Positions 1-46,987 of a DNA stretch of 64,000 nucleotides are shown here, piece by piece. Below the pieces are notes generated by a model. It saw only the letters and a program-made list of their open reading frames with translations, did no database searches and was not told the origin of the DNA. The DNA is from Chloroflexota bacterium (GTDB lineage: Bacteria > Chloroflexota > Dehalococcoidia > JACPQD01): assembly GCA_016190665.1 (NCBI GenBank), contig JACPQD010000044.1:1-64000 (forward strand), given 5' to 3'. Positions within the stretch are counted from its first letter, which is position 1. Each line of letters starts with the position of its first letter. Both the position numbers and the translations under genes were made by a program.

Positions 1-202
1 CTATCGGGCCTCCCCGTCCCTTGCCGGGTTACCCCACCACGCCGGCCTTGTATCCGGTTTCTGTTCGTCGAGTCCGAGTTTCGCCTCCGGCTTCCTTCAG
101 ATTCCGCCTCGCGGCGGACACCCTTGCCTTCGGCTGGCGGTTCCGGTCATCTCGGCCCGCAAAGGTCTTTCACCTCCTGGTTACATGACATGCCTGGCGC
201 AC
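1..202 (-). mobile_element. 5' part of a group II intron (domain I), truncated by window edge
   Basis: Read on the minus strand, this stretch begins with GTGCGCC at 202, matching the GUGYG 5' boundary of group II introns. It continues with blocks I recognise from bacterial group II ribozymes: an AACCAGGAGGTGAAAG segment, GGAACCGCCAGCCGAAGGC, and AATCTGAAGGAAGCCGGAGG. No reverse-transcriptase reading frame falls inside the window; it would lie beyond position 1. The 5' exon (bases 203 upward) holds a perfect 9-bp hairpin followed by TACCGGTTTT directly before the intron. That matches the habit of class C introns of inserting just after terminator-like stem-loops. Identification as a group II intron is firm; the class is inferred. 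Confidence 0.85.
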
Positions 203-1010: not shown

Positions 1011-2729
1011 ATGTCGGAACCAGTGTATGAAGTCGCATGGCCGCTGGGGAAACTAGCCTATGAGACGGTATCATTGGCCAACCCGGCGGCGGATCTCAGC
1101 GGGAAGACGGTCTGCGAGCTCTGGGACCGGCTCTTCCGCGGCGACGAGATGTTCCAGGGGGTCCGCGAGGCGCTTTCCAGGAAGTATCCGGGTATCAAGT
1201 TCGTCGATTCCACCAATTTCGGCGATACCGTGGGGCTCAAGCGACAAGAGGTGATTGCCGCGCTCCCCGAGAAGCTGCGCGGCCTGGGGTGCAACGCGGT
1301 CATCTCCGCGGTGGGCGCCTGAGGCGCCTGCACGCCCGCCGTGGTGCGGGCGGCCGCCGCGGCCGAGAAGGCCGGCGTGCGCAGCGTGTCCATCGTCTCC
1401 GAAGGCTTCATCAGGCAGGCCCACGCCATTGCCCAGGCCCTCGGGCTGCAAGACCTGGCCATCGCCGAGTACCCCGGCGTTCCCATGGTCGACAGCAAAG
1501 AGGTCCTCCAGAAGAAGGTGTCGGAGACGCTCGTCAAGGAAGTCATCGCCGGGCTGACCAAGCAGGCTTCGATAGCAGTGAAACCGGACGAACCGGGGCG
1601 GAAGGATATCGTCTTCAGGGGCGCCCTGGATGAGGTCCACGAGTTCTTCTACAACAATATGTGGACGGAAGGGCTGCCCATTGTTCCGCCCACCGTCGAC
1701 CGGGTGGAGAAGTTCTTGCGCTTCACCGACCGTTCCCCGGATGAAATCATCGGCGTCCTGCTTCCCGAGAATCGCGAGGCCACCGTCTGGAACGTGGCGG
1801 TCAACGGCGTCATGGCCGGTTGCCGGCCGGAGTACATGCCGGTACTGCTGGCGATAGTCGACTGCATCTCCGCCCCGGAATGGCTGGTCGAGGATGCCGG
1901 CAGCACCCCCGGCTGGGAGCCGCTTATCATTCTGAACGGCCCCATCATGAAGCAACTGGACTTCAACTACGGCGCCTCGGTCATGCGCGTGGGCCGGCAA
2001 GCCAACACCTCCATCGGGCGCTTCCTGAGACTCTATCTGAGGAACGTGGCCGGGCTGCGCATACCGCCCGGCGCCACGGACAAGGGCAGCATCGCCTACA
2101 CCTTCAACGTCGTCCTCTGCGAGAACGAGGATGCCGTCGCCGAGATGGGCTGGCAGCCCTTTAGCGTCGACCGCGGCTTCAAGGCGGGCGACAACGTGGT
2201 CACCGTGCAAAGCTGCGTCAATATCAGCCCGCCGACCTACAGCGGCGGACACGCCGCGGAAGCCCACATGGAGACCCTCGCCGATCTCATCGGGCGGCGC
2301 TCCATGTCCTACTGGACCGCCGTCGCCGCGAACAACGGGCGGTCCTACCCCCTGTTCGTTCTCGGACCGAGCATCGCTGCCGTCATCGCCCGAGACGGCT
2401 GGTCGAAAGACAGGATTCGCCAGTACCTGTACGATAACGTGCGGGCTGAGGCGGGCTATCTGGAGAAGCTCTCCTGGCAGAGCGGCCAGACGGACTTCAG
2501 CTTCTGCAACTGCGTCGAAGACGGCAAAGTATCCCAGGACTTCTGCCAGTCCGACGACCCCAGGCGCATGATACCCGTCTTCCTGAAGCCCGAGTGGATC
2601 GAGATCGTCGTCAGCGGCGACCCCGGCCGGAACCAGAGCAAAGGGTACATGCAGAACCAGAAGCAGGGCGTGCCCGTCTCGCGCAAGATACAGTTGCCCG
2701 CGAACTGGGAACATACTGAACATGGATAA
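1011..2729 (+). CDS. UGSC-family selenoprotein (diverged paralogue, UGAC motif), TGA read as Sec104
   Basis: Reading through the TGA at 1320-1322 gives a 572-residue protein, started at ATG 1011 behind AAGGAGG. The N-terminal part (about 1-165) carries the family motif as U-G-A-C-T right after SAVGA. The C-terminal part (about 205-572) contains WTEGLPIVPPT and NGVMAGCRPEYMP. These align with the three paralogues at 18.3-23.8 kb, which have WTDGLPIVPPT and NAVMAGC at equivalent places. The frame is open on both sides of the TGA and conserved residues continue across it, so this is selenocysteine insertion and not a broken gene. The UGSC family is a known selenoprotein family of unknown biochemical role. 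The U-G-x-C arrangement resembles a redox selenenylsulfide motif, but function is inferred only. It stands alone between a terminator and the iron block. Confidence 0.85.
1320..1352 (+). promoter_or_regulatory. Selenocysteine codon with candidate bacterial SECIS hairpin
   Basis: UGA (1320-1322) is followed after 10 bases by a 7-bp GC stem (1333-1339 with 1346-1352) closing the loop CGTGGT. A G sits at the second loop position, 19 bases after the UGA. Bacterial SECIS elements are expected to have a G in the first two loop positions at about this distance. Confidence 0.6.
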
Positions 2730-12434: not shown

Positions 12435-13238
12435 TCAGGCGATATCCTGAAGCACCTCGTTCATGGCGCCGGTGCGGTAGCCGGCCAGGTCGAGGGTGAT
12501 GTAGGTGTAGCCGAGGGCGCGCAGCCGGGCAGCGACCGCTTCCCGCTTCTCCATGAGGATGGCCATCCCCTCGGCATCCGCCTCGATGCGCGCTATGCTG
12601 TCATGGTGGCGCAGGCGGAGCTGCCTTATCCCCAGTCCCCGCAGATAGTCCTCGCCCTGGGCGATCCGGTCCAGGACGTCCTCGGTGATGGGTGTGCCGT
12701 AGGGGAAACGGGAGGCCAGACAGGCCAGGGACGGCTTCTGCCAGGTGGCAAGGCCCAATTTCCGGGAGAGGGCGCGGATATCCTCCTTGGTGAGGCCCGC
12801 CTCCAGGAGTGGGCTGCGCACGCCGAGCTCGGCGGCAGCGGCGCGGCCGGGGCGGTAGTCGCCCACGTCATCGGCGTTGGAGCCATCGAGCACCCAGGTC
12901 AATCCCTCCCTATCGGCGATGCGGCGCAGGATGCCGAAAAGCTCGTGCTTGCAGTAATAGCAACGCTTGGGGTCGTTGGAGACGAAACAGGGGTCCTCCA
13001 GTTCATGGGACTCGACGACCATATGCCGGATGCCAAGGCGCTCGGCGGTGACGCCCGCCTCGGCGACCTCCGCGGGCGGGTAGGTGGGTGACGCGGCGGT
13101 CACCGCCAGCGCCTTGTCGCCCAGCATTTGGTTCGCGATAGCGGCCAGTAAGGTGCTGTCCACGCCGCCGGAGAAGGCGACCAGGACGGAGCCCATCTCC
13201 TCCAAGTTCGATCTCAGTTTGGCCAGTTTATCTTCCAT
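12435..13238 (-). CDS. larE: LarE, ATP-dependent sacrificial sulfur transferase
   Basis: 267 residues. PP-loop ATPase motif SGGVDST (about 20-26), then [13 protein letters not shown] and [20 protein letters not shown] contains the cysteine known to be sacrificed as sulfur donor in LarE enzymes. LarE thiolates the carboxylated nicotinic acid precursor of the nickel-pincer (NPN) cofactor of lactate racemase-type enzymes. LarB is encoded 3.2 kb away, but no LarC or LarA is in the window. Only one base separates this start from the stop of the oxidoreductase gene at 13240, so the two are co-transcribed. Confidence 0.9.
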
Positions 13239-13239
13239 T

Positions 13240-15183
13240 TCAAATCAGCCTCCCCACCCTCGCGCCGTCGGCAATGGCCATCAGGGCATCTCGCGGCTCA
13301 GCGCAGTCACCGATGACATGCAGCTCAGGAGCCAGGCCTTTGAGTTCCTCCGCCAGCCGGTCCTCCGCCTTCGCGCCCATGGCTAGCACCACGGTGTCGG
13401 CGGGCAGATAGAGGAGCTCGCGATTGTGGGTGAAATACACACCTTTCTCTTTGATTTCATAAAGCGGGGCGTTCTCATAGATACGGACGCCCCTGCCGAT
13501 GAGCCGGTCGCGCAGCGTGAGATACAGGTTGCGCTCCACGTCGCGCCCCAGGCGCGTCCGCGTCGCCAACGAAACCTGCTTACCTTGCCCGGCGAGGAGG
13601 TCGGCCACCTCCATGCCGCGCTCCCGGCCGCCGACGACCACGACCCTTTCGCCCACGCTGACCTTCCCGGCGAAGACGTCGATGGCCTGGACCACGTTGC
13701 CGGAGCGGGCGCCAGGGACCGCGGGGACGATGGGCGAGGCGCCGGTGGCCACCACGACGGCATCGGGCCTTTGCTCCCGGATCAGGTCTTTCGTTACCTC
13801 GGCTTTAAGATTGATTTGGACGCTGGCGTCTTCCAGCGCGCGAAGGCGCTGTCTGAGGAACCGATCGAAGTTCACCTTCGAGGGCTGCCTGGCGGCGACG
13901 TTCCATTGCCCGCCCAGGCGATCGCTCTTTTCATATAGTGACACGTTATGGCCCCGCTGCGCCAGGGCCACGGCCGCCTCGACTCCCGCCAGCCCACCGC
14001 CGACAACCATGACCTTCCTGGGCCGCTCCGCCGGCTTGAGCGCGAACTCGCGCTCGCGCAACAAGGCCGGATTGACGGTGCAGGATACCACGCGCTCCAC
14101 CGAGCCGGGGCTGGCCACGCGGCCCACGCAGTTGTTGCAGTAAATACACCGGGTGATCTCGTCCAGACGCCCGTCGCGGGCCTTGTTCGGCAGGTCGGGG
14201 TCGGCGAGGAGGGCCCGGCCCATGGCCACGAAATCGGCCTCGCCCTCTTGAAGGACCTGTTCGGCGAGCAGTGGGTCGCCGATCTTGCCCACCGTGATAA
14301 CGGGAACCTTCACCACTTTCTTGACGGCCTCCGCCAGATGGGTGATGGCGCCGTCGGGAAAGAAGTGGCAGAGGAACTGCCAGGGCGTGGTCTCCTTGGC
14401 GCTGGCCGAGATATGGAGGGCATCGGCGCCGGCGTTGGCCAGTATGGACGCCTGGCGGAGGGCGTCCTCAATCGTGGTGCCGCCCTCCAGGTAGTCGCTG
14501 CCGTTCATGCGGAAGATGATGGGAAAGTCGCGGCCCACCTTCCGGCGGGTGCGTTCGATAATCTCGCAGGCGAACCGGGCCCTCTTCTCGGGCGTGCCGC
14601 CGTAGTCGTCGATGCGGCGGTTGGTGAAGGGGGAAAGGAACTCGCTGATGAGGTGGCCATGGGCCCCGTGGAACTCGACGCCATCGAAGCCGGCGTCCCT
14701 GACGCGGCGCGCCGCGTCGGAGAAAGCCTCGACGAGCCGCTGAATGTCCTCGAGGGTCGCCGCGCGGGGCGCGACGCCGTACATGGCGCTGGGGACGGCG
14801 GAAGGGCCAACCAGGTCTATCTCGTCTGCGCCATACGCGCTACGAGTGTGAGCATGGGTCATGCCGTGGTGGATGAGCTGTACGGCCATCTTGCCGCCGC
14901 GCTCGTGGACGGCGTCGGCGAGCTGGCGCAGGCGAGGAATGAACTTATCGTCATGGAGGAGCCAGCGGCCGGGCCGGCGTCCCTCCCAGAGGATGCAGAC
15001 AGCGCCGGAGATGATCAGGCCCACGCCTCCCTGCGCCCGCGCGACATAGTAATCGAAGGCGCTGTCGTTGGGGAAGCCCTCACTGTCGCCGGTGAAGGTG
15101 CCCATGGCCGCCATGACGAGGCGATTTTTCACCTCGAGGCTCCCTACCCGGCCGGGGGCGAAAAGGTGAGTGAATTGCGACAT
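13240..15183 (-). CDS. FAD/FMN/4Fe-4S NADH:flavin oxidoreductase (2,4-dienoyl-CoA reductase-like)
   Basis: 647 residues with the three-part plan of the family. An N-terminal old-yellow-enzyme TIM barrel (about 1-340) has [26 protein letters not shown] and [24 protein letters not shown] cluster site with a further Cys in VSCTVNP ligates 4Fe-4S. A C-terminal FAD/NAD module starts at [14 protein letters not shown] and has a second dinucleotide motif, [17 protein letters not shown]. Such enzymes reduce unsaturated acyl-CoAs, trimethylamine-like substrates or steroids; the substrate here is unknown. An AGGAGG site precedes ATG 15183, and larE follows immediately. Confidence 0.9.
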
Positions 15184-16422: not shown

Positions 16423-17211
16423 CTACTCATGACCGCCTTGATTCCGATTTATCAAGGCGGCTAGATACCCTGCCCCGAAGCCGTTGTCGATGTTGACTAC
16501 GGCGACGCCCGCGGCGCAAGAATTCAGCATGGCGAGAAGCGGCGCCAGCCCATTGAAGCTGGCGCCGTAGCCTATACTGGTGGGCACGGCGATCACGGGC
16601 ACGGATACCAGGCCGCTCACTACGCTGGGGAGGGCGCCCTCCATGCCCGCCACAGCCACGACGACGCGGGCCTGATGAAGCCGAGGTAGATGATCGAGGA
16701 GCCGGTGAATGCCGGCCACACCCACGTCGAAGGCGCGGTCCACCTCATTCCCCATTAGCTCGGCGGTGACGGCCGCCTCCTCCGCCACAGGGAGGTCGGC
16801 GGTGCCGCCGCTGACCACCATGACGCCGGGCCGTAGCTTGCCCTCGGACCGGTTGAGCACCAGCGCGCGAGCCAGTTCGTTGTAGGCAGCGTCAGGGAGG
16901 CGCTCCTTGACCAACTGGAAGGCGTCCGGAGAGCACCGCGTGACCAGGAGGCGGTCCGTGTGGGAGGCGAGACTGCAGGCAATGGCGCAGACCTGCTCCG
17001 CGCTCTTGCCGTGCCCCAGGACCACTTCGGGAAAGCCCTGCCGCAGCGAGCGATGGTGGTCCACCTTGGCGAAGCCCAGGTCCTCGTAGGGCAATACCCG
17101 CAGCTTAGCCAGGGCTTGCTCGATGGAAAGCTCTCCGCTCTTGACCTTCTCCAGCAGTTCCCGGATATTCTGGCTATCTATGGTTATCGCTCCCGTCCAA
17201 AAGTCATTCAT
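16423..17211 (-). CDS. larB: LarB, nickel-pincer cofactor biosynthesis carboxylase
   Basis: 262 residues. A PurE-like (AIR carboxylase) fold in the C-terminal half, with [19 protein letters not shown] and the glycine-rich [10 protein letters not shown] loop. The N-terminal half has [18 protein letters not shown] and [11 protein letters not shown], both typical of LarB. LarB carboxylates and hydrolyses nicotinic acid adenine dinucleotide in the first step of NPN cofactor synthesis. Together with larE at 12435 it indicates that the organism makes the cofactor. The partner LarC and any LarA-type racemase must lie elsewhere. It faces the repetitive secreted protein with a three-base gap. Confidence 0.9.
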
Positions 17212-18344: not shown

Positions 18345-20036
18345 CTACCTGCGCGACCTTCTGAAGTCGTTCATCGACTTCACGGGCGTCCCATCCTTGA
18401 AGGCGATGGGCCGCGTAACGGCCCTCGTAGAGTCGAAGAAGCTGGCCACGAAGGACGCGTGGGACCCGCCGCCCCCCGCCACAAGAACCATGATTTCCTC
18501 CGGCGAGCTGGCCACCTTGTGTATGGGGTGTTCCTTCACCAGGGAATGCCCTTTCACCCGCTCGGAGATAATGTAGGGCGGATAGGGGGCGCGGGCATAC
18601 TTGAAGAGGTAATCACGGATAGACTTCTTGTCGAAGCCATCCCGCTTCAGCACCATCGCCTGCTCCGGTCCGAAAATGCACAGCGGCTGGCCACCGCCGG
18701 CTATGATGTTGTTAGAGCCGGAGGCGACCATGTTGCCCACCATGGTGCTCAGCAGCCCCTTGCCCGTGGTGCTCATCATGTCAATGATATTGTGCGGGGC
18801 CGCGCCCCCGAAGACGGTCACCGTGGAGACGTCCTCCGGGTAGCCCAGCTCCACATGCAGCGGCTCCCAGGGGTTCTCGTCCTCGTTCTCAGCGATGCAC
18901 AGCGAATACTTCCCCGCCTGGCCGAAGGTCGACCGGTCGTAGATGCCCGGCTCGCCCCCAGCGATGTTCAGCACCACCAGGCGCACTGCCCTGCCAATGG
19001 TGGCGTTGGCCCGCATCACGGAGCCAAAGAGCCCGTAGCCGTAGTTCACCTCCAGCTCCTTGACCACCGGCCCGTTAATTATCACGATAGGCGTCGCCGG
19101 GTTAGTCGTGGCGATGATGCCCGGCAGGTTGAACTCCGGCGCGGACATGGCCTCCACCGCCGCCAGCACCACAGGGAAGTACGCCGGCAGACAGCCCGCC
19201 ATCACCGCGTTGATGGCTATCTTCTCCACCGTCGCCTTGCCCCGGCGCGGCTTGAAGACGGCCACTACCTCCCGGGGATCGCGGTCGGTGTACTCCAGCA
19301 TCCGCGCCACTTCGGAACGGGTGGGCGGAACGATGGGCAGCCCGTCGGTCCAGCCCCTTCCGTAGAAGAGGCGATTGGCGGCCTCGATCTCAGCGCTTCC
19401 CTTGACCTCCACCCCCTCGGCGGCGAAGGCGGGCCGGCTGCGCACCGCGGCCTTAGGCTGCGGGTATCCCTTATCTCGGTATTCCTCATCCAGCTTGCCG
19501 GCTGGGGTGGTGAGCACGTGGACGATCTCCGGGAGGTTCCGCTCCGCGTGGACTTTGACCTGCTCGGGCGTGAAGCGCTTGGGCGGGTGCGGCTCGAGGA
19601 CCACCGGCAACTGAGGCAGGCCCAGGGCGGTCAGCTCCTCCCTGGCCAGTTGCCCAAACTCCTCGGAGGCCACATAGGCCGTGGGCACACCCCTCTTCTC
19701 CAGCTCGACCACATCGTGGACACTCCACGAAGTGCAGGAGCCTCAGTCGCCGTGGGCGTGGACCACGAAGGCGGCCTTCTTCGCCAGGTCGTCAAGCACT
19801 TCGGGAGGCGTCGGGCGCGCCGTGTCCGGCTTCTTATATCTCACCGCGCCGGCGAGGCCGTACTTGGCGCTGAGCACCTCCTCCACCCGCTCCAGATAGA
19901 CGTCGCTATTGATCTTGTTGTTATCAATAAAACAACCGATCTTGCCTTCGAGGGTGTCCAGGCGGGAAGCCAGGTTCAGCGCCACCGCATCGACCTCGCC
20001 TATCGGGTTGAGCAGGACATCTGTCTGTGTGGCCAT
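18345..20036 (-). CDS. UGSC-family selenoprotein (array gene 3), TGA read as Sec98
   Basis: 563 residues when TGA 19743-19745 is read as selenocysteine. The motif reads HAHGD-U-G-S-C-TSWSVHDVVELE, the family hallmark. The C-terminal part contains GWTDGLPIVPPT (about 229-240), NAVMAGC and a long conserved block with GGEPGIYDRSTFGQAG. A stop here would remove 83% of the protein, yet the downstream frame is open and closely matches two neighbouring paralogues. The start follows the previous gene's stop by two bases (AAGGAGG inside that gene), so translation is coupled. A redox role for the Sec/Cys pair is likely; the substrate is unknown. Confidence 0.92.
19714..19745 (-). promoter_or_regulatory. 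Sec codon and bacterial SECIS candidate
   Basis: TGA at 19745-19743, 12 bases, then the perfect 7-bp stem TCGTGGA/TCCACGA around the loop GTG. The loop G is 20 bases after the TGA. The same hairpin occurs in the two adjacent paralogues. Confidence 0.75.
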
Positions 20037-20038
20037 GG

Positions 20039-21730
20039 TTACTTCGCCCTCCTTCTCTTGAACTCCTCAACTGTCTTAACTAGGGCGCCATTCTTCAGGG
20101 CGAGGGGCCTCGAGGCGGCCCGCGTGGCGTCCAGGAAGCTGGCTACGAAGGACGAGTGGGAGCCTCCGCCGCCGGCCACCATAATCATGATCTCGTCTGG
20201 ACTCAGCGCCACCCGATGTATAGGGTGGTCCTGCCAGGTGAAGCACAGCTCCTCGTTCTCCGCGCTAATGGAATAGGCGGGATAAGGGGCGCGAGCGTAC
20301 TCGTAGATGTAGTCGCGGACCTTCTTCTTATCGAAGCCGTCGCGGGCCAGCACGGCCGCCTGCTCCGGACCGAGAATGACCAGCGGCTGGCCGCCGCCGG
20401 TGCAGATGTTGTTGCTGCCCGTGGCCACCAGGTTGCCGCAGATGGTGGAGAGGATACCCTCCGCTGTGGTGCTGGTCATGTCCAGGATGTTCTGCGGCGC
20501 CGCGCCGCCGAAGACGGTCACCACGGAGGCGTCCTTCGAGTATCCCAGCTCCACGTGCAGCGGCTCCCAGGGGTTCTCCGCTTCGTTCTCGGCGATACAC
20601 ATCGAGTACTTGCCCGCCTGGCCGAAAGTGGAGCGGTCGTAGATGCCCGGCTCCCCTCCCGCGATGTTCAGCACCACCAGGCGCACCGCACGACCTATCG
20701 TGGCGTTAGCCCGCATCACGGACCCGAAGAGCCCGTAGCCGCAGTTCACCTCGAGTTCCTTCACCACCGGCCCGTTCATGATGACCATGGGCGACGCGGG
20801 GTTCGTCGTGGCGATGATGCCCTGCAGGTTGAACCTGGGTTCACCCATGGCCTCCACGGCCGCCAGCACCACCGGGAAGTACTCCGGGACGCACCCCGCC
20901 ATCACGGCGTTGATGGCTATCTTCTCCACCGTCGCCTTGCCGCTCCGCGGCTTGAAAACGGCCACCTCCTCCTGGGGGTCGCGGTCGGTGTACGCCAGCA
21001 TTTTCTCCACCGCCGAGCGCGTCGGCGGGATGATAGGCAGGCCGTCGGTCCAACCCCGGCCGTAGAAGATGCGGTTTGCCGCCGTGGGGCTCCCCTTGAG
21101 CTCCAGCGACTCCGGTGCGAAGGCGGGCCGGCTGCGCACCGCCGCCTTGGGCTGAGGGTAGGCTTTCTTGCGATATTCCTCGACCAGCTCTTCGGCGGGC
21201 GTGGTCAGCACGTGCACCACCTCGGCCAGCGCCTTATCAGCGAAGGGGCGGAACTGGTCCGCCGTGAAGCGCTTGGGCGGGTGCGGCGACATGATGATAG
21301 GAAGCTGGGGCATGCCCAGCGCTTCCGAGTCGTCCCGGCCCAGTCGGGCGAACTCCTCGGAGGCGAAGTAGGCCGTGGGAATGCCCCTTTTCTCCAGCTC
21401 GACGACGTCGTGGACACTCCACGAGGTGCAGGAGCCTCAGTCGGCGTGGGCGTGGACGACAAAATCACACTTCGCCGCCATCTCATCGATAATCTCCTGA
21501 GGGGCAGGCACGCTAGAGAGAGGCTTCGTCCGCATGATGGCTTCCGCCATACCGTATTTCTCTTTGAGAAGCTCCAACAGGCGCGCCAGGAAGACATCGC
21601 TGTTCACCTTGTGGTTGTCGATGAAGCCACCCACCGTCCCCTCCAGGCTCTTCAGCCTAGGGGCCAGCTTCAGTTGCTGCACGTCGACTTCCCCGACGGG
21701 GTTGAGCAGAACGTCAGTTTCAGCTACCAT
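20039..21730 (-). CDS. UGSC-family selenoprotein (array gene 2), TGA read as Sec98
   Basis: 563 residues through TGA 21437-21439. GGAGG is five bases before ATG 21730. The N-terminal 97 residues begin MVAETDVLLNPVGEVD and end FVVHAHAD, then U-G-S-C. The rest is colinear with array gene 3 with no gaps in length, and similarity stays high after the TGA. The two genes arose by tandem duplication and are retained as full-length copies, which argues for separate substrates or dosage rather than decay. Between this gene and array gene 1 is a 386-base gap with three hairpins. Confidence 0.92.
21408..21439 (-). promoter_or_regulatory. Sec codon and bacterial SECIS candidate
   Basis: Same layout as at 19714-19745: TGA, 12 bases, TCGTGGA-GTG-TCCACGA. 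The base changes in this region relative to the other copies fall outside the stem. Confidence 0.75.
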
Positions 21731-21833
21731 AGTACCTCCGAGTGAAGTTGCGCCAATCAGGATGCATCTGATGCCCCCTTTGCCGGTCTTAACAAGAACA
21801 TGTGCCCTTCGGCGGACTCATCAACCCCCTAAA

Positions 21834-21909
21834 TCCCCCAATCTTGGGGGACTTTACTGGACCTGGGGGACACCCCCAGACCCCCGCCAGAGGCGCTGCG
21901 CCCTCTGGA
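21834..21909. repeat. Three consecutive hairpins between UGSC genes
   Basis: TCCCCCA-atct-TGGGGGA, CTGGGGG-aca-CCCCCAG and CCAGAGG...CCTCTGG follow one another in the 386-base gap. They could terminate transcription or stabilise mRNA ends; no T-tract of length follows on the minus strand. No gene was seen in the gap. Confidence 0.6.
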
Positions 21910-21929
21910 CTCCCGCTCCTCCGTCACTA

Positions 21930-21972
21930 GCGTGGCGTCCCTCCCTCTTCAGGGGATAAGAGGGAGAGGTCC
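21930..21972. repeat. Dispersed repeat, inverted copy of 9865-9937
   Basis: GCGTGGCGTCCCTCCCTCTTC then AGGGGATAAGAGGGAGAGGTCC. The AAGAGGG/CCCTCTT arms form a hairpin. Related to the element before the DtxR-like gene. Confidence 0.55.
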
Positions 21973-22116
21973 AACCCCACCCCACATCCCGCCTTTCTGT
22001 CGCAACAATATGAAGGCGTTTATCTGGGAACCATGAAAGGGCAATCAACAAGGAGAGGCTTGTTTTCGCCTTCGCCGAGCTGGGTCGCTATCCCCTTCTC
22101 GTCTTGAACCCTGAGC

Positions 22117-23796
22117 TTAACTCAGGGTGAACTCCTGCACCGATTTCACGGGCGTCCCGTCCTTCAGGGCGATGGGGCGCGTGACCGCCCGCGTGCCATC
22201 GAAGAAGCTGGCGACGAAGGAGGAATGGGAGCCCCCGCCGCCGGCCACCATGATCATGATCTCCTCCGGGCTGCTGGCCACTGTGTGAACTGGGTGGTCC
22301 TGCCAGGTGAAGCATAGGTCCTCGTGATCGGCGGCGATAGTGTACGGCGGATAGGGGGCTCGTGCGTACTCGTAAATGTATTCCCGTATCTTCTGCTTGT
22401 TGAAGCCATCCCGCGCCAGCACGGCGGCTTGCTCCGGCCCGAAGATAATGAGCGGCTGGCCGGCGCCGGCGGCGATATTGTTGCTGCCGGAGGCCACCAT
22501 GTTGCCGCACATGGTGGACAGGATGCCCTCCCCTGTGGTGCTGGTCATATCCAGCACGTTCTGGGGCGCCGCGCCGCCAAAGACGGTCACTGTGGATACC
22601 TCTTTGCGGTAGCCACGCTCCACGTTCAAAGGCTCCCAGGGGTTCTCCGCCTCGTTCTCGGCCATGCAGAGGGAGTATTTGCCCGCCTGGCCGAAGGTGG
22701 AGCGGTCATAGATGCCCGGCTCACCGCCAGCTATGTTCAGCACCACCAGGCGGACCGCGCGGCCGATGGCGGCGTTGGCCCGCATCACCGAGCCAAACAG
22801 GCCATAGCCGCAGTTAACCTCCAGCTCCTTCACCACGGGCCCATTGATGATGAGCAGCGGCGAAGCGGGGTTGGTGGTGGCGATGATGCCCGCCAGATTG
22901 AACTCCGGCGCCGCCATCGCCTCCACCGCGGCCAGGACTACGGGGAAGTACTCCGGAATGCACCCGGCCATCACCGCGTTGATGGCTATTTTCTCCACCG
23001 TAGCCTTGCCGCGACGCGGCTTGAAGATCGCCATCACCTCATCAGGGTCCCGGTCAGTGTACTGGAGCATCCGGGCCACCGCCGGGCGAGTGGGTGGGAT
23101 GATGGGCAGGCCGTCCGTCCAGCCGCGTCCGTAGAAGAGACGGTTGGCGGCCTCGATGCTGCCGCGCACCTCCGGGCCCTCGGCGGCGAAGACGGGCCGG
23201 CTCCTGACGACGGCCTTGGGCCTGGGGTATTCCTTGTTCCGGTACTCCTTCGCCAACTGGTCGGCCGGCGTCGTCAAGACGTGGACGATCTCGGGGACGG
23301 CGGCATCGGCGAAGGTGCGGAACTGGTCGGCGGTGTAGCGCTTGGGGGGGTGAGGGACGACAATGATGGGCAGTTGTGGCATACCCAGCGCCAACAACTC
23401 CTCCTTGGCCAGGAGCGCGAACTCCTCCGAAGCAATGTAGGCAGTGGGGACGCCCTTTTGCTCCAGCTCGACGACATCGTGGACACTCCACGAGGTGCAG
23501 GAGCCTCAATCAGCGTGGGCATGCACCACAAAGGCGCTCTTCTCGACCTCAGCCATCACCGTCGGCGGCACGGGCTTGGAGGAGCTGGGCTTCCTGGTGA
23601 TGAAGGAGCTGCTCATGCCGTGTTTTTCGACCAGCAACTCGGCGACGCGCGCGATGAGGACATCGCTGTTCACCTTGTTGTTATCGATGAAGCCGCCGGC
23701 TGTGCCCTGAAGCGTTTTCAGCCGGGGGGCCAGCTTGAGTTCCGCCGCATCCACCTCTCCCACGGGGTTAAGCAGGACATCCGTCTCGGCAACCAC
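22117..23796 (-). CDS. UGSC-family selenoprotein (array gene 1), TGA read as Sec97
   Basis: 559 residues through TGA 23506-23508, starting at GTG 23796 behind GGAGGAGG. It has the same plan as the other array members: MVAETDVLLNPVGEVDAAEL, then VVHAHAD-U-GSCTSWSVHD, then GWTDGLPIIPPT and NAVMAGCIPEYFP. It is the promoter-proximal copy. In all three array proteins the residues next to Sec are identical (U-GSCTSWSVHDVVELE), while the first ~95 residues and the region around 110-160 vary more. That pattern fits a common redox centre with different binding surfaces. Selenocysteine insertion genes (selA, selB, selC, selD) are not in the window. Confidence 0.92.
23477..23508 (-). promoter_or_regulatory. 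Sec codon and bacterial SECIS candidate
   Basis: Third copy of TGA, 12 bases, TCGTGGA-GTG-TCCACGA. Confidence 0.75.
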
Positions 23797-37643: not shown

Positions 37644-39353
37644 CTACTTGGCGAGCCACAAAGCCTGAAAAGTGTTGTTGTTGAAATTGCCCAGCCCCGG
37701 CTCCCAGTTTCTGACTCTTGCCGAGGCGCCTCTTATCCCGGACTCCCAGGCAATGGATATGAGCGGCATTTCATCGAGGAGTTTCAGTTCGACCTCCCGG
37801 ACGATCTTCTTGCGCTCGGCGATGTCCAGCGTGCGCCTTTGCCTCCTGAAGAGGTCATCGACCTTGGGGTCGCTGTACCAACCCCGATTGCTGGGGCTGC
37901 CCGAAACATAATACCGCGCGATGTCATCAGGGTCGGTCTCGTTCAGGGAGTTACCTTGGGTAAATACTTCGAAGTCCTTCTTCAGAAGCCGTGCTTCCCA
38001 AACCGACTGCTCGAGCCTCACCATTTCAGCCTCTATGCCAACTTTCCTCAACTCATGCTGGGCGAACTCGGACTGCACATCATCAACCCCAGCCCTGACT
38101 ATCATCTGCGTCTTGAAGCCGTTGGCGAATCCGGCCTCGGCCAGGAGTTTCCTGGCCTCAGCGATATCGGCATCCTTGGGCTGGCGGTAGCCCGGCCGCT
38201 TTACCAGCTCAGGCTCGGGGATGGCCCACTCCGTCCCCGGAACCAGCGCACCACCCACCTTCCCGTAGCCCTGGCCTACCACCTTGATAGCCGCCTGGCG
38301 GTCGATGGCCAGGTTTGCCGCCTGGCGTACACGGAAATCGCTCCACGGCGCCTTCTCAAAGAAAGGAACGAGGCCGAAGTTACTCAGGGCGGGATACTCG
38401 TAGGCGACGGCCCCAGGCATCTCCCTCTTGACCGCCTCCGCCTCGGACGCGCTGAGATAAGTGCCTCTGCCAACAGCCGTCAAGTCAATCTGCCCCGTCC
38501 TGAAGGCGGCAAACCGGGAAGAGGCATCCCTGATGATATAGAACTGTATCCCGTCAACATAGGGCAAGCCCCGGACAAAGTAATCGGGGTTCTTGACCAA
38601 CTCGTAGAGGACGCCAGGCACGAAACGTTTGAACCTGAAGGGGCCAGTGCCAACAGAGTCATCTTCCTTTCTCATGTCGAACTTCGCTTCCATGATATGC
38701 CTGGGCTGAACCACCATTCGCCCCATGGCGGCGGTGCCCAGGAATACGGCGCTTGGATCCGTCAGGGTAATCTTCAGCGTGTTCTCGTCGGGGGTCTCTA
38801 TCTTGTCTACCCCCTCCAGAAGCGACTGCCTTGAAGGAGGGATCAACTTCGGCGGGGGGTTCTTTATCCGGTCGTAGGTATACCTGGCATCCTCAGCGGT
38901 GAAGGGCTTGCCATCGTGCCACTTCACACCTTTGCGGAAGTAGAAGGTGTAGACTTTGCCATCGGGGCTTATCACCCACTTCTCGGCCAGGTCAGCAATG
39001 ATGTTCTCATTCTTCCCCGGTGTGGGGTCGTGCTGGAGTATGCCGCTGTAGATACCCCCGACTATCGCAAAGAGGGCTATCGTAGGGCTGAGCATGGGGT
39101 CGAAGTGGGGCGGGTCCCCGCGTTGGGCGACTTTCAGTGTGCCACCGTACCTTGGCTCCGCCGTTGCCGGTTTGGGGCTGGGTGACGGCGCCGCCGCTGG
39201 CGCCGGAGGCTTAGAAACTGGAGTTTCCACCTTTGGCGCGGGCACGGCTGGCTTGCTGGTGGGCGTCGGGGATGCGGCAGGCACGCAGCTTGCCCATAGC
39301 AATCCCAGCATGGTCAAAGCGGTCGTCGGTAACAACATTTTCTCGGACTGCAC
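37644..39353 (-). CDS. Family-5 extracellular solute-binding lipoprotein (cluster A, distal)
   Basis: 569 residues from GTG 39353 behind AAGGAGG. Lipobox WASC (about residue 22), then a Pro/Ala/Thr/Lys-rich linker to ~65 and the SBP_bac_5 domain: YGGTLKVAQRGDPPHFDP, FYFRKGVKWHDGKPFTAEDARYTYDR and VRQAANLAIDRQA. It binds peptides, opines, nickel complexes or other small organic ligands for an ABC importer; no permease or ATPase genes are nearby. Lies 30 bases after the MmgE/PrpD gene. Confidence 0.9.
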   Translation of the reverse strand: MQSEKMLLPTTALTMLGLLWASCVPAASPTPTSKPAVPAPKVETPVSKPPAPAAAPSPSPKPATAEPRYGGTLKVAQRGDPPHFDPMLSPTIALFAIVGGIYSGILQHDPTPGKNENIIADLAEKWVISPDGKVYTFYFRKGVKWHDGKPFTAEDARYTYDRIKNPPPKLIPPSRQSLLEGVDKIETPDENTLKITLTDPSAVFLGTAAMGRMVVQPRHIMEAKFDMRKEDDSVGTGPFRFKRFVPGVLYELVKNPDYFVRGLPYVDGIQFYIIRDASSRFAAFRTGQIDLTAVGRGTYLSASEAEAVKREMPGAVAYEYPALSNFGLVPFFEKAPWSDFRVRQAANLAIDRQAAIKVVGQGYGKVGGALVPGTEWAIPEPELVKRPGYRQPKDADIAEARKLLAEAGFANGFKTQMIVRAGVDDVQSEFAQHELRKVGIEAEMVRLEQSVWEARLLKKDFEVFTQGNSLNETDPDDIARYYVSGSPSNRGWYSDPKVDDLFRRQRRTLDIAERKKIVREVELKLLDEMPLISIAWESGIRGASARVRNWEPGLGNFNNNTFQALWLAK

Positions 39354-39383
39354 TAGAGACCTCCTTCATGGGCTGGACTGCTC

Positions 39384-40811
39384 CTAGACCACCAGTAACT
39401 CCATTAGCTGACCGATATCCTCTACCTCTTCCAGGCCATCCACTGCCCGGATCACCTGTCTGATCTGGGCCTCCGCCATGACCTTTGAGGCCAGGTTCCT
39501 GAACTTGGCCTCGACCTCCTCCTGGGTCATAGGATTCTTCGTATCGCCCTTCGGGTAATCCATGAGGCAACTATAGCTGTTGCCGCTCCTGGTCCTGATC
39601 TCCACGTTGACCGTCCGCGCCCGCCTTTCAGCCCAGAACTTGTCCAGCTCGGGATCGAACGTGCACTTGATTCTGGACATGAGGTCCAGAACTCTGGGAT
39701 CCAACCATTGCTGGCGGGCATACTGGTCCGGTCCCACATCTCCCTCAAGGATGGCTATGGCAACCGCATAGGGGGTGCTGTGGTCGGCGCTCTCTTTGCT
39801 GGTGGGTTTATATGCCTTCTCGCCTGCCAGGGCTACGGTCGCGCCCCTGATGCCGCTGATCTGAACCAGGTCTATGTCCTCCGCCTTGAGGTTGTTTTCC
39901 CTGACCAATTTCAGGGCGGAGGCAACGGGCGTATGCGTCCAGTAGCCGGCAGCGTAGGGCTTTAGCTGGCTGTCCAGGATCCTCAGCCTTTCTCGGCCCT
40001 GAGTTAGCGCTGTGGTGTCTATATCCCCCACCGATATCTTGAGGAAGCTCTCGATGATGGTGCTTGGACCGGTAAATCCCCTCCGGGCCAGTAGCGCCGC
40101 CATGACGCCGCTCTGAGCGGCGAAGGGATAGGCAGCGGCCTTTATCAAGTTTATCTGGCTCTCTTCTCCCGGGTTGCCCGTTGGCGCCCCGTTGTTGCCC
40201 ACCTCGTCCACCGCCTTGGCATACAAGCTCCAAGCTTCGCCGTAGATGCCTGCCAGCGTGACATTGTGGCTGCCGCCTATGCCTATGGCGTTGGTCATTT
40301 CCTCCTCATTGAGACCGAGGAGCTTCCCGGCGATCACGGGAACAGCAAAGCCGCCCATCGTGGCATGATGGTAGCCGGGAAAACGCGAGGTATCGACGAA
40401 TCTCCCCTGGACCTCATATCCAAGGACGACGGCGACGATTGCCTCCCTGCCCCCAACGTGCTCTCTCTCTGCAACCGCTAGCGCCGACGGTATGTTGTCG
40501 CTGGGGTGAGAACCGCCAATAGACATGTAGCTATCGTTGAAGTCCAGGTAGCGGACCATTATGCCGTTGGTCAGGGTAGCGTTGGGACAGGAGGTCATGA
40601 CGCCGCTTCCGATTACGGTGCACTCCCCTTTCCCACCCAACTCCCCGATCACACGGCGGGCTATCTGGCTAGGCTCGCTGAGGTAGCCTCCCAAGGCGCA
40701 GCCAAGGGTATCCAATACCAGTTGCTTCGTGTAGCGCACCGCTTCCTCGGGCAGATCTTCGAACCTGAGGTTGACAGCGAACCTGCTAAGCTGGCGAGCA
40801 ATAGAATCCAA
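39384..40811 (-). CDS. MmgE/PrpD-family dehydratase/isomerase
   Basis: 475 residues. TTG 40811 is chosen because AGGAGG lies seven bases before it; a longer start would place that site inside the gene. Family motifs: TKQLVLDTLGCALGG, VRYLDFNDSY, GGSHPSDNIPSALAVAE and GYEVQGRF. MmgE/PrpD enzymes act on 2-methylcitrate, cis-aconitate or related tricarboxylates. The genes on both sides encode binding lipoproteins, suggesting import and catabolism of an organic acid. Confidence 0.9.
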   Translation of the reverse strand: MDSIARQLSRFAVNLRFEDLPEEAVRYTKQLVLDTLGCALGGYLSEPSQIARRVIGELGGKGECTVIGSGVMTSCPNATLTNGIMVRYLDFNDSYMSIGGSHPSDNIPSALAVAEREHVGGREAIVAVVLGYEVQGRFVDTSRFPGYHHATMGGFAVPVIAGKLLGLNEEEMTNAIGIGGSHNVTLAGIYGEAWSLYAKAVDEVGNNGAPTGNPGEESQINLIKAAAYPFAAQSGVMAALLARRGFTGPSTIIESFLKISVGDIDTTALTQGRERLRILDSQLKPYAAGYWTHTPVASALKLVRENNLKAEDIDLVQISGIRGATVALAGEKAYKPTSKESADHSTPYAVAIAILEGDVGPDQYARQQWLDPRVLDLMSRIKCTFDPELDKFWAERRARTVNVEIRTRSGNSYSCLMDYPKGDTKNPMTQEEVEAKFRNLASKVMAEAQIRQVIRAVDGLEEVEDIGQLMELLVV

Positions 40812-40893
40812 TGCGAGACCTCCTCGAGACAAGGGGGGAAAGATGGCGGTTTCTCCTCATGCTCGTGCAAGAGTTGCTGCCGGCCGCCCATTA

Positions 40894-42537
40894 TCAGCAA
40901 CCCTCATCCAACCACACATCCTGCCTTTTCTGGTTATTGTGATACCCAACCTGCTTTTCGGGGTAATAGCCCTTGATGCACTTCCAATAGGGAACGTCAA
41001 TGAGGCCGGTAAAGAGTATGGGCGGCGCGAGATCGAGTATCCTCCGTTGGATATTCAGGAGTATCTCCTTGCGCCTCGTCTCGTTCATCGTCTGGGACTG
41101 CTCCCGATACCAGTCGTCCACCTGCTTATCGCTGAAGCTGCTATAGTTGCGCCCCCCACCGGTTACGTACAGAGCCAGGAAAAGGTCGGGCTCATCGACA
41201 GCTTGCGCCGTAGTGTACGGGCTGATGGCGAAATCTCGGGCGAAATAGCGCTTCTCCATCGTTGCGGTGTCTACGGCCTTGATGGTGACGTTAATCCCAA
41301 TAGCCTTAAGCTGGTCCTGAACAAAGAGGGCCTGTTTTCTCCAGGTATCGCCTCCGATCATCGCCTCTGCCTCGAAGCCCTTCGGGTAGCCTGCCTCGGC
41401 CAACAGTGCCTTGGCCTTGTCGATGTCGGCGGCCGTGACCCCGCGGTAGCCCGGCCTCTTCATCAGTTCATCCTCAGGCAGCGCCCAGCGCCCCTTGGGC
41501 AAAGGTCCTACGATTTCCGCCTTCTTGTCCATCACATCGATTACTTTCTTGCGGTCCAGGCTCATGTTTATTGCCTGTCGGACACGCAAGTCGTTGAAAG
41601 GCGGGGCATTGAGATTAAGGTGGAGGACGTTCATGCTCAAAGCCGAGATACGAGCGACGGTGACCTTGTCTGCCAGCTCCTTATTCAACATCTCAGCCTG
41701 GGAGGCCGTTAGGTTGCTGGAGGAGACGAACATGCTCCGCACCTGGCCGGTGCGGAAGGCAGCCAGGCGGGCGGCCCCTTCCGGCATTATATAGTGAACT
41801 ATGCCGTCCAGGTACGGGCGGCCCGGGATGAAATAGTCGGGATTCTTGACGTGCTCGACGCTGACCCCCCGCTTGTACTCCTTCAGTTTGAAGGGGCCCG
41901 TGCCGAGGATGGTGTACCCCATCAGCTTCTTGTCCTTGAGGTGCTGCGGCGGGAGCATGGCAGCGTATACGAGCGCTATCCCGGCAATGAAGGAGGGCCG
42001 GGGGCCCTTGAGGTAGACCTCCACCGTGCTGGCGTCCGGCGCCTCGACGCGCTCTACCCCTTCCACGATCTCTTTCCGGATGATGACTACCCCCTGGGGC
42101 GGCTTCAGCCAGCGGTCGAAGTTGAACTTCACATCTTCCGCGGTGAAGGCCTTGCCGTCATGCCATTTGACGTTCTTGCGGAGAGTGAAGGTCACCTTCT
42201 TCCCATCGGCGCTGAACTGGTAGCGTTCCGCCAGGTCCGGGCTGATGCGCGTGCCGTCCGAAGGGTCGTACTGGACGAGGCTGCTATAGGCGGGCCCCGC
42301 CTGCTCGGCGGCTAGGTTGCGCGCCGTATTGTGAAGGTCAAAGGTATTCTCGTCCTGGAGGGCGGCGTGCTTGAGGATTCCGCCCTGTTTTGGCTGCTGA
42401 CCGGCCTTGGGCGTGCCTGCTGGCGCCGGCGATGCCTTCGGCGCCTGCTGGCCGCCCGCTGGCGCGCAGGCCGCAAGAAGAAGCGCCAGGGTTGCCAACA
42501 TCGCGACGACTCTGATACCTTTGCCTACTGATATCAT
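40894..42537 (-). CDS. Family-5 extracellular solute-binding lipoprotein (cluster A, proximal)
   Basis: 547 residues. Lipobox LAAC (about 24), an Ala/Pro/Gly/Lys linker, then GGILKHAALQDENTFDLH, FTLRKNVKWHDGKAFTAEDVKFNFDR and LRVRQAINMSLDRKKV. It closely resembles the binding protein at 48206-49870 in the second cluster, including the ending QDVWLDEGC, so the two clusters share a common ancestor. It is 82 bases before the MmgE/PrpD gene and probably opens the transcript. GGAGG lies just upstream of the start. Confidence 0.9.
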   Translation of the reverse strand: MISVGKGIRVVAMLATLALLLAACAPAGGQQAPKASPAPAGTPKAGQQPKQGGILKHAALQDENTFDLHNTARNLAAEQAGPAYSSLVQYDPSDGTRISPDLAERYQFSADGKKVTFTLRKNVKWHDGKAFTAEDVKFNFDRWLKPPQGVVIIRKEIVEGVERVEAPDASTVEVYLKGPRPSFIAGIALVYAAMLPPQHLKDKKLMGYTILGTGPFKLKEYKRGVSVEHVKNPDYFIPGRPYLDGIVHYIMPEGAARLAAFRTGQVRSMFVSSSNLTASQAEMLNKELADKVTVARISALSMNVLHLNLNAPPFNDLRVRQAINMSLDRKKVIDVMDKKAEIVGPLPKGRWALPEDELMKRPGYRGVTAADIDKAKALLAEAGYPKGFEAEAMIGGDTWRKQALFVQDQLKAIGINVTIKAVDTATMEKRYFARDFAISPYTTAQAVDEPDLFLALYVTGGGRNYSSFSDKQVDDWYREQSQTMNETRRKEILLNIQRRILDLAPPILFTGLIDVPYWKCIKGYYPEKQVGYHNNQKRQDVWLDEGC

Positions 42538-42629
42538 GGTTAACCTCCTGTCGGTCTCTCAATTGGGGCTCCAACGCTCCGCGCCGAAAGGATCATGCTT
42601 CGCTGCTACGTGGTGACGGGCGTCAGGGC

Positions 42630-42860
42630 CTATATCCTGCCGTACTGAGAAGCCGCTTTTACATCGCCCCGGCGAAGAGCCTCTCTCACATCATCGAGCT
42701 TGTACGCATCCTCGAGAGAGAGGTAGGGAGCCCAACCGTCTTCAGCCTCCAGCAACTCTACGTCGACTTCGGCGACATATCGACCTTCATGGACTAGTTT
42801 CGTTCGACTTCGCTTTCTCATCTGCGCCTTCCGATCCCGTTCGGCCTGGTTGGGCTCCAT
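42630..42860 (-). CDS. Small hypothetical protein in toxin-antitoxin island
   Basis: 76 residues. Basic N-terminus MEPNQAERDRKAQMRKRSRTK, then VAEVDVELLEAEDGWAPYLSLEDAYKLDDVREALRRGDVK. Similar short proteins with a GWAPYLSLEDAxKLDDVR core occur beside RelE/BrnT-like genes, so an antitoxin role is plausible but unproven. CAGGAG precedes the start. Confidence 0.6.
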   Translation of the reverse strand: MEPNQAERDRKAQMRKRSRTKLVHEGRYVAEVDVELLEAEDGWAPYLSLEDAYKLDDVREALRRGDVKAASQYGRI

Positions 42861-42884
42861 GGGTCTCCTGGATGACCGCGCTGG

Positions 42885-43230
42885 CTAGGATTTCTCAATC
42901 CACTCCACCAAGTGTTGCTTGATGCGTTGCAGTCTGTCAGGGGATAGCTGGCCAGTTGCCCCAAGAAGAAGCATGCCTTCCACGACAGCCAGACGACCCA
43001 CCCTGATCACGCTTGCAACCTTCAGGCCGCTTGGCGCAAAGTCACCATCTTGCTCCCGGACAAGCTCATCGAAATGGGGGACATAATGGCGGGTCTGCGA
43101 AGAGATCATGCAAATCAACCAATCGTCGAAGTCTCCAGGCAGCTTTCCCAGCAGGAGGGCGGGGCAGATTGCCTTCCTTCAAGTTGGCTTGAGGAAACCG
43201 ATAAAGGACGACCTGTCCTGCTTGCTTCAC
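42885..43230 (-). pseudogene. MazF/PemK-family toxin with internal frameshift
   Basis: Starts at GTG 43230, overlapping the antitoxin stop as GTGA. VKQAGQVVLYRFPQANLKEGN is the MazF beginning, then the frame breaks at CTGCCCC (about 43161-43164). One frame over, PALLLGKLPGDFDDWLICMI and SVIRVGRLAVVEGMLLLGATGQLS complete a normal MazF with the usual C-terminal helix. The pattern fits loss of two bases where an Arg codon is expected before PALLL. Unrepaired, the product is a C-terminal fragment from an internal ATG, without the RNase active site. Confidence 0.8.
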
Positions 43231-43454
43231 AGAAACGTTACCTTAAGATCGGCTTCGGAATAATGGGGCTCATTTTCGTCCTCCATGCCGCGCATGGCCG
43301 AGGATAAAGACATCTCATTCCAGATGCGGTGGTCATCTTCCTCATGACCTCGTTCAGCTTTCGTGAGAAGACGCTGGACGAAATCAAGGACCTCTGCCTG
43401 CATAGCTTTCGGCAACTGTTGAACGCCCTGCTGAATTCTGTCAGTGATCGTCAT
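43227..43454 (-). CDS. DUF2281-like antitoxin
   Basis: 75 residues from ATG 43454. TITDRIQQGVQQLPKAMQAEVLDFVQRLL resembles short antitoxins of the DUF2281 type placed before MazF/PIN toxins, with an acidic tail. It overlaps both neighbours: 14 bases with the ParD-like gene upstream, and GTGA with the toxin downstream. That is a compact module with coupled translation. Confidence 0.7.
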   Translation of the reverse strand: MTITDRIQQGVQQLPKAMQAEVLDFVQRLLTKAERGHEEDDHRIWNEMSLSSAMRGMEDENEPHYSEADLKVTFL

Positions 43455-43689
43455 GGCTACTATCCCCCAGCCAAACGAACGCGTACTCGGTTTTCTCGCC
43501 CCGCTCCAGTTCCTCCGGCCCAATCAAGATATCCTTAATGAGTGAATAGGTTAAATCGGGGTTCTCCTCGGCGCGCTTGCCCACCCGGGCCCAGTGTTCG
43601 ATTTGGCCAGCCAGAGACCTGTGGTCTATTCGGCTCGATTTCCTTGCCTCATTCACCAGTTCTTCCGATATCCTCACTGCTGCCGCCAT
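43441..43689 (-). CDS. ParD-like antitoxin
   Basis: 82 residues from ATG 43689, which has GGAGG six bases upstream (GTG 43713 is rejected). MAAAVRISEELVNEARKSS then SLAGQIEHWARVGKRAEENPDLTYSLIKDILIG is typical of ParD-like proteins. No ParE partner is next to it; it precedes the DUF2281-like/MazF genes, so it may be an orphan or a second antitoxin. Confidence 0.75.
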   Translation of the reverse strand: MAAAVRISEELVNEARKSSRIDHRSLAGQIEHWARVGKRAEENPDLTYSLIKDILIGPEELERGEKTEYAFVWLGDSSHDDH

Positions 43690-43787
43690 AGCATCCTCCA
43701 GTCGAGTTGACACTCCTTATATCATTACGCAGCGTTATATCGCATAACGCAACCAGAATCATGCCTATCAGAGGGTCGCCGGCCCGC

Positions 43788-44648
43788 TTACGAGCTACCT
43801 TTGAGCAGCCCCGTCGGTATCGCTGATTCGCAGGGGACGGCGGTGAGGCAGAAGCCGCACGTCACTCTCTCAATCTCGTACGGTTTGGCCAGGTGGGTGA
43901 ACTGGGCCCTGAAATCGAAGCACTTTATCTTGTCATGGCCCTTCTCGGTGATAGCGCCGGAGGGGCAGCGCTCGATGCACCGGCCGCAGGAGCCGTTCAG
44001 CACATATGGGCAATATGCGGTGTGGGACGTGTACTCGCGCGGGGACGCGGGCAGCGCCAGGTCAGTCACGACGCTGCCGCAAAACATGGCCATCCCTTTC
44101 GGCGTTATCAGGCCATCGTTGTGGCTGAAGGTGCCCAGCCCGGCGGCGTAGGCAACGTGTCGCTCCGACCAGTTGGAGGACTGGTCTGTCGGTGTGACGA
44201 TCCTCCGCCAGAAGGCGGCGGTGTAGGGCGCCACGGCGGCGTAGCCCTGTCGTTGCAGGTAATCGACCATTTGCGCCCGCAACACATCGTTGAAGCGGGG
44301 GGCGTAATGCATGCCGTGGGCCCAGATCTTGGTGGGAGTGGTCTTCTCACGCCTCATCGACGCCTTGATCTTCGTGGCGAGGGGCAGGACCCAGGAGATC
44401 ACGCTGACGCTCTCCGCTTCTTTTCCCGTCGCTTTCTGAAGCGCCTCGGCCGGCGTCATATGATAGTCGCCGATGATAGTCTTGTACTCGGCGAAGAGAG
44501 GGTCGTCGCCACTGGCGAACCCAACCAGCGGCTCCTCGAAGATCGGCGAGTTGTCAATGAAGCGCATGCGGTTGCCCTCGCTCTCCTTCGTGATCCTCTT
44601 GACGAGAGCATCGATGCCTTCCTGTGTTAATGTGATGTCGGTGGACAT
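43788..44648 (-). CDS. QueG-like 4Fe-4S protein ending cluster B
   Basis: 286 residues. GLGTFSHNDGLITPKGMAMFCGSVV is the core. CGRCIERCPSGAITEKG is a ferredoxin-type cluster site, and a second, shorter site is seen as CGFCLTAVPCESAIP, where the usual CxxCxxC spacing is stretched (C-G-F-C-L-T-A-V-P-C). It has the same length class as the protein at 36820, with divergent sequence. It follows the aminopeptidase gene by 52 bases and is the last gene of the second catabolic cluster. Probably a reductase or electron-transfer partner. Confidence 0.75.
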   Translation of the reverse strand: MSTDITLTQEGIDALVKRITKESEGNRMRFIDNSPIFEEPLVGFASGDDPLFAEYKTIIGDYHMTPAEALQKATGKEAESVSVISWVLPLATKIKASMRREKTTPTKIWAHGMHYAPRFNDVLRAQMVDYLQRQGYAAVAPYTAAFWRRIVTPTDQSSNWSERHVAYAAGLGTFSHNDGLITPKGMAMFCGSVVTDLALPASPREYTSHTAYCPYVLNGSCGRCIERCPSGAITEKGHDKIKCFDFRAQFTHLAKPYEIERVTCGFCLTAVPCESAIPTGLLKGSS

Positions 44649-44700
44649 GTTCCCCCCTTGTCGGGTCGATCGACTAATCCGACGCTTGACTGTTTCGCCG

Positions 44701-45669: not shown

Positions 45670-45717
45670 TGGCTGCCCTTTCCGAGTGCTCCTCGTCGGA
45701 TATTGCTTGCGGTGGAC

Positions 45718-46878: not shown

Positions 46879-46987
46879 TTCGAACTCCTTTTCTAAGTTT
46901 CCTGTTTCTGGCAATCCTAGCAGACGGCGCCGCGCCTGTCAATCCGAGAGCCGCTTGCGAGAGCGGAGCCGTGGAGAGGACTTGCTC

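Follow-up and report, generated by a model that had tools for sequence, protein, structure and literature searches.

The window, by which we mean the whole stretch of 64,000 nucleotides analysed here, carries a tandem array of three genes on the minus strand, named A (18345-20036), B (20039-21730) and C (22117-23796). With TGA read as selenocysteine (Sec), their open reading frames encode UGSC-fusion selenoproteins of 563, 563 and 559 amino acids; gene A ends with TAG, gene C starts with GTG, and gene B lies upstream of gene A with a gap of 2 bp. Each gene has exactly one in-frame TGA (19743-19745 in A, 21437-21439 in B and 23506-23508 in C, corresponding to U98, U98 and U97), which is embedded in the motif D-U-G-S-C-T-S-W-S-V-H-D-V in all three, and the proteins are 71-77% identical along their full length on both sides of this codon. 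A preliminary description of this DNA, made from the sequence alone, had read the array as three intact UGSC-family paralogues with an in-frame TGA at the same codon and conserved protein on either side of it, and all of this is borne out. A degenerate nucleotide pattern for the site, TGAGGNWSNTGY, matches six times in the window against 1.26 matches expected, the three array sites included.

Family searches place the N-terminal part of each protein (about residues 8-176) in the UGSC family PF24696, with 147.5, 159.5 and 144.8 bits for A, B and C against a curated cut-off of 25. The family name given in the preliminary description is thus correct, though it covers only this N-terminal domain, which is fused to a C-terminal domain of about 370 residues for which hmmscan of the window genes matched no Pfam family. 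The corresponding NCBIfam model NF041046 gives 124.0, 124.7 and 116.4 bits, all under its equivalog cut-off of 125 and only narrowly so, and by NCBI's threshold the fused form is a divergent variant of the UGSC family lying outside that equivalog. A fourth copy had also been reported at a distance from the array. It exists as gene D (1011-2726, plus strand; PF24696 89.7 bits, NF041046 58.4 bits), a divergent UGSC fusion about 30% identical to the array genes with its TGA (1320-1322, plus strand) at the aligned codon, but its motif is A-U-G-A-C-T (AUGACTPAVVRA), that is, UGAC instead of UGSC.

Directly 3′ of each array TGA, at a distance of 14-33 nt, lies a SECIS-like hairpin. Counted together with the TGA, these elements occupy 19698-19745 in gene A (stem TCGTGGA/TCCACGA, loop GTG), 21392-21439 in gene B and 23461-23508 in gene C, all on the minus strand, with folding energies of -21.4 kcal/mol for the 48-nt fold in A and -17.7 kcal/mol in both B and C. 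To separate RNA constraint from peptide constraint, the folding energy was compared with that of synonymous recodings of the same peptide. Across the family the mean z was -1.73, and 40 of the 89 sequences ranked among the lowest 5% of recodings; for 124 paralogues of this genome the mean z was -0.98, with 28 in the lowest 5%, whereas four control stretches in the same paralogues gave z values of -0.07 to +0.55 and 0-8 such cases. In 86 of the 89 TGA copies the stem is 6 bp or longer, and paralogues with unlike peptides after the motif (SWSVHD and PAVVRAS) build the stem at the same place from different bases.

Relatives outside the genome were sought in one genome per species (84,980 genomes), and the best 80 of at least 558 relatives were kept. 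These 80 loci come from Chloroflexota, Rokubacteria, Entotheonella, Proteobacteria, Binatia, Poribacteria, a haloarchaeon and others. At the aligned codon they have TGA in 86 places and TGC or TGT in six, one of the six, together with a single GCC, being an alignment artefact. Cys truly takes the place of Sec in five of the outside loci (L023, L058, L067, L077 and L080), which belong to Natrialba asiatica, two sphingomonad MAGs and one MAG each from Binatia and the archaea; this is the exchange expected of a selenoprotein family.

Three of the four sel genes to be expected on the Sec reading are found in the same genome above their curated cut-offs: selA (469 bits), selB (353 bits) and selD (386 bits), the last with an in-frame TGA Sec codon of its own in the motif AAGUAAK. 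The fourth, selC, encoding tRNA-Sec, was not found in the draft assembly by RF01852, by ARAGORN on the selA, selB and selD regions, by a pattern search or by a class-specific covariance model. The best selC match, at C39:46357, was rejected after ARAGORN called it as tRNA-Ser(GCT). Since the genome is a draft MAG (5.0 Mb) in 107 contigs with an estimated completeness of 96.6%, we read the missing selC as an assembly gap. Among genomes of the same class, 33 of 60 have a tRNA-Sec, at 63-79 bits.

The array belongs to a far larger set of genes. When the genome was searched with PF24696, the best 150 of 208 candidates were all strong (E ≤ 9e-23) and 146 of them contained TGA; another profile, made from the paralogues that diverge more, contributed 33 further TGA copies, which brings the total to at least 179 UGSC genes carrying TGA in frame. 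The C-terminal domain has at least 150 matches in the same genome. For closer study 722 kb were fetched around matches, making 786 kb together with the window; these contain 130 UGSC domains, of which 125 have TGA at the site, 81 of the latter being fused to the C-terminal domain. Among the genes are five triplets, one of them the window array, and 24 pairs, and the motif varies among UGSC, UGGC, UGAC, UGTC, UGNC, UGLC and UGDC. Other genomes of the class have up to 50 UGSC candidates (at most 11 scored, among the matches listed) against 207 here. The preliminary description had spoken of real investment in this chemistry, judging from the copies in the window; the direction was right and the size far too modest. 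The largest bacterial selenoproteomes in a 2026 review (PMC13188914) are those of the Olavius algarvensis Delta1 symbiont, with 57 genes, and of a Methylomirabilota MAG, with 63 genes. The figure of at least 179 genes comes close to three times the biggest bacterial selenoprotein set in the papers searched (open-access PMC), among which we found none on such an expansion.

The sequence evidence for Sec decoding at these codons is strong, and we regard it as nearly certain. That the TGAs are true stops, marking broken genes or gene pairs, or that TGA is generally reassigned in this organism, is so improbable as to need little discussion: only the selC gene missing from the draft speaks for genuine stops, and against them stand the Cys substitutes in outside homologues, a hairpin beyond what the peptide imposes, and the presence of selA, selB and a Sec-containing selD. 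Moreover, the 125 genes have one TGA each, at one aligned codon, followed by Gly in 125 of 125 and within UGxC in 124. General reassignment is contradicted by the use of TGA as an ordinary terminator, which closes 107 of 370 ordinary genes as well as 28 UGSC genes of the same genome. A different concern is that the copy number is inflated by a MAG mixing related strains or species. The assembly is fragmented and its estimated contamination is 6.13%, and the same caveat is raised for the 63-gene record by the review that reports it (PMC13188914). However, best identity among the 125 checked paralogues has a median of 70% and a maximum of 89.7%, with none above 90%, and they are therefore not strain duplicates; selA is single, and selB and selD each have one copy over the cut-off. 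In a tree of the C-terminal domain the paralogues of this genome fall into 23 clades of their own, and the three largest have 22, 22 and 15 members. This indicates that the genes multiplied within the lineage, as lineage-specific expansion predicts. We consider inflation by mixing very unlikely.

Gene A is followed downstream, on its own strand, by a gene for a metal-dependent hydrolase of the beta-lactamase fold (NF001911; 17423-18157, minus strand), a relative of which (40% identical) stands next to another of the genome's UGSC genes (L208). Genes larB and larE near the array raised the possibility of a link to Lar and nickel-pincer chemistry; no close relatives of either occur in the 80 outside loci or in 40 other stretches of the genome, and the two are accordingly taken as local neighbours. 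Further along the window, at 37644-51676 on the minus strand, is a catabolic block of a type that recurs near UGSC paralogues. It contains four SBP_bac_5 receptor genes (at 37644, 40894, 48206 and 50003), a MmgE/PrpD gene (39384), a CoA-transferase family III gene (45718) and a MaoC-like gene (46988).

No receptor gene directly adjoins the window array. Within the 786 kb, there are 122 SBP_bac_5 (PF00496) receptor genes, and a receptor adjoins 76 of the 125 UGSC genes, in 75 cases on the same strand. Shuffling within loci gave 61.4 ± 4.2 adjacencies, with a maximum of 77 in 300 shuffles; the excess is only moderate because the stretches were picked for their UGSC content and receptors are very abundant there. 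Strand agreement is the stronger part of the receptor link. Other recurrent neighbours are CoA-transferase III, MmgE/PrpD, D-2-hydroxyacid dehydrogenase, glycyl-radical enzymes and MaoC-like dehydratases. Outside the genome, the commonest non-UGSC neighbour is a TctC-type receptor, identified from sequence and not by family search, in 34 of the best 80 loci, followed by LLM-type flavin enzymes and CoA-transferases; it is in proteobacteria that UGSC genes have TctC receptors nearby. The receptor family varies by lineage while the association persists, which suggests that uptake is coupled to catabolism.

A structural model of full-length gene B, computed with AF2 from an alignment with 34 relatives (pLDDT 89.8, pTM 0.91), predicts an alternating alpha-beta UGSC domain with strands at residues 33-38, 63-68, 90-96, 119-124 and 145-148 and helices between them, in which Sec98 sits at the N-terminus of helix 99-114. 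Rossmann-, flavodoxin-, CheY- and lumazine-synthase-like folds dominate its list of structural matches, and the model supports a Rossmann/flavodoxin-like domain that is not evidently thioredoxin-like. A thioredoxin fold is not excluded by its absence from such matches, though the way strands and helices alternate in the model speaks against one. Searches of PDB sequences with the full protein, the C-terminal domain or GrdB gave no significant relative. GrdB-type proteins (PF07355) of class relatives carry the segment VVLTGTUGTGTRCGATLTKEMERAGIP. Profile-profile comparison of the UGSC and GrdB families gives 95-96% probability (E 2e-8 to 1e-9, single comparison) with Sec aligned on Sec, against at most 4.6% for 11 unrelated control families. 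As hmmscan of the window proteins lists UGSC alone, with no direct PF07355 match, the relation is carried by this profile-profile alignment of about 95 columns, which supports a remote homology between the UGSC domain and the selenocysteine half of GrdB from glycine, sarcosine and betaine reductase.

For the C-terminal domain, modelled alone with a pLDDT of 92.2, near-invariant residues are the cysteine of VMAGC, which is the sole near-invariant Cys, together with an Arg, a Glu, a Trp and an Asn. A Foldseek search returned a weak match to 7xky_A, of the class I fumarate hydratase type (E 8.4e-4, TM ≤ 0.28), and the comparison with the fumarase-like fold by VIA gave a Z of 4.8, below 5, with an rmsd of 5.5 over 178 residues. 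In many outside loci UGSC and the C-terminal domain are encoded by separate neighbouring genes, which supports a joint function of the two parts; in Poribacteria there are loci with the C-terminal domain only, where no UGSC part was detected.

These observations bear on what the Sec residue does. In the 2008 paper (PMC2398784) a thioredoxin-like fold was suggested for the UGSC family. On the view put forward with the description of the family, its members are thioredoxin-like oxidoreductases in which Sec and Cys of UGxC make up a redox couple for disulfides or peroxides. The UxxC motif favours such oxidoreductases, as does the Cys of UGxC, kept in all but one of the 125 copies. The Rossmannoid model and the homology to the Sec domain of GrdB weigh against it, and the fusion to a large domain, the adjacency of receptors and the diversification of more than 100 paralogues are easier to reconcile with substrate-specific catabolism than with general redox buffering; we think the redox reading unlikely. 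A little less probable still is a division of labour in which the Sec reading holds but catalysis lies with the C-terminal domain, perhaps as a hydro-lyase, and the Sec domain only senses or repairs. The fumarate hydratases as weak top structural matches and the Poribacteria loci would suit this arrangement, but a fold match with Z below 5 is inconclusive and Sec is retained in nearly all copies of the genome. A [4Fe-4S] hydro-lyase, furthermore, is expected to need three Cys, and the domain offers the single one of VMAGC.

What we favour, as a reading with somewhat better than even prospects, is that the array encodes three Sec-containing catabolic enzymes of an exceptionally expanded family, which would work in receptor-plus-selenoenzyme modules through attack of the selenolate on carbon in small imported acids. 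The enzyme group of GrdB makes and breaks selenium-carbon bonds (review, PMC10298544), and we infer GrdB-like carbon chemistry for the UGSC proteins with moderate strength. In the proposed route, the receptor delivers a small organic acid or amide, which the C-terminal domain would bind and activate with its VMAGC Cys, Arg, Glu, Trp and Asn. The Sec selenolate may then attack the activated carbon and displace a leaving group to form a selenoether, which the Cys of UGxC would resolve as a selenenylsulfide, and an external thiol would reset the enzyme. The product could be processed by the nearby CoA-transferases, MaoC/enoyl-CoA hydratases and MmgE/PrpD enzymes. The substrate presumably differs between paralogues, and this would explain why there are so many. 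A bolder form of the proposal, possible although we hold it with more doubt than confidence, is that the organism has well over 100 such receptor-plus-selenoenzyme modules, in which a GrdB-like Sec domain, joined by a new substrate domain as fusion or as partner, breaks carbon-heteroatom bonds in many different imported small acids. If so, no larger selenoproteome would be known, and GrdB-type selenium-carbon chemistry would be recognised for the first time beyond the Stickland-type reductases.

In natural waters the UGSC family is abundant, and to our knowledge no function has been assigned to it. The present proteins share the Sec at UGxC and the N-terminal domain with the family described by Zhang and Gladyshev (PF24696/NF041046); they differ in number, since a single genome has at least 179 where the complete GOS set of 2008 yielded 255, in their many motif variants and in their adjacency to expanded solute-binding receptors. 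A fusion of UGSC with 'Unknown_1' was reported from marine metagenomes in 2008 (PMC2398784), and the window fusion probably has this architecture, the two being matched by description alone; a 2016 survey table gives 33 and 26 for the family, as sequences and organisms in either order (PMC5029168). The family and the fusion are already known, while the family's scale in this genome, the link to receptors and the kinship with GrdB appear new, none of them having been found in the literature searched. With GrdB and with PrdB, the selenocysteine subunit of D-proline reductase (both PF07355), the likeness is a remote profile homology in which Sec aligns with Sec and is succeeded by two segments, one of the form E.aGIPt and one PHP-like, whereas the present genes have another partner domain and a solute-receptor neighbourhood and lack a direct match to that family. 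The receptor-rich catabolic loci of Betaproteobacteria, with their expanded periplasmic TctC ('Bug') receptors, resemble the present ones in having such receptors close to UGSC genes, but the receptor family here is SBP_bac_5. The Delta1 symbiont and the Methylomirabilota MAG are likewise uncultured, selenoprotein-rich bacteria, but their 57 and 63 genes are whole selenoproteomes, and here one family alone accounts for at least 179.

Selenocysteine is costly and usually used sparingly. So many Sec genes of one family raise questions of selenium supply, of the UGA decoding load and of why Sec is retained over Cys, and the links to GrdB and to solute receptors offer the UGSC family a specific chemistry that can be tested. 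An annotation that ends at TGA would split each such gene in two.

The Sec codon has disappeared from a few UGSC paralogues of the own genome (L219, L220 and L228), in which the site reads GFGCSGV in L219 and L220 and GFGWSGV in L228. These are natural Sec-to-Cys and Sec-to-Trp forms within a single genome. Among the best 80 of at least 558 relatives from other genomes, two betaproteobacterial loci (L042 and L051) carry a variant motif, DUGTSCSVSVS, in which the second Cys is displaced by one position; the hairpin after their TGA also has a different sequence. Four poribacterial loci of the same set (L073, L079, L081 and L082) possess genes for the C-terminal fusion partner with no UGSC domain detected. 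In three of them, CBS-domain genes and genes resembling those of 2-oxoacid:ferredoxin oxidoreductases come next; the fourth stops at that point.

At least two PrdB/GrdB-C-like proteins are present in the own genome; in the protein encoded on C9, the Sec motif reads UPVC. Class relatives possess a full GrdB with the motif UGTGT or UGTST, in which the second Cys is substituted.

A glycyl-radical (PFL-like) enzyme is encoded on the minus strand of an own-genome stretch (L206, 3944-6439), and five more occur across such stretches. Their presence as immediate neighbours of some UGSC genes points to an anaerobic lifestyle.

A short distance downstream of the UGSC array lie genes for LarB (16423-17211, minus strand; NF033503, 292 bits), an old-yellow-enzyme-type reductase (13240-15183) and, beyond it, a LarE-like PP-loop protein (12435-13238, minus strand). 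A group II intron D1-D4-3 fragment (1-118, minus strand; RF02001, 90 bits) is truncated by the window edge.
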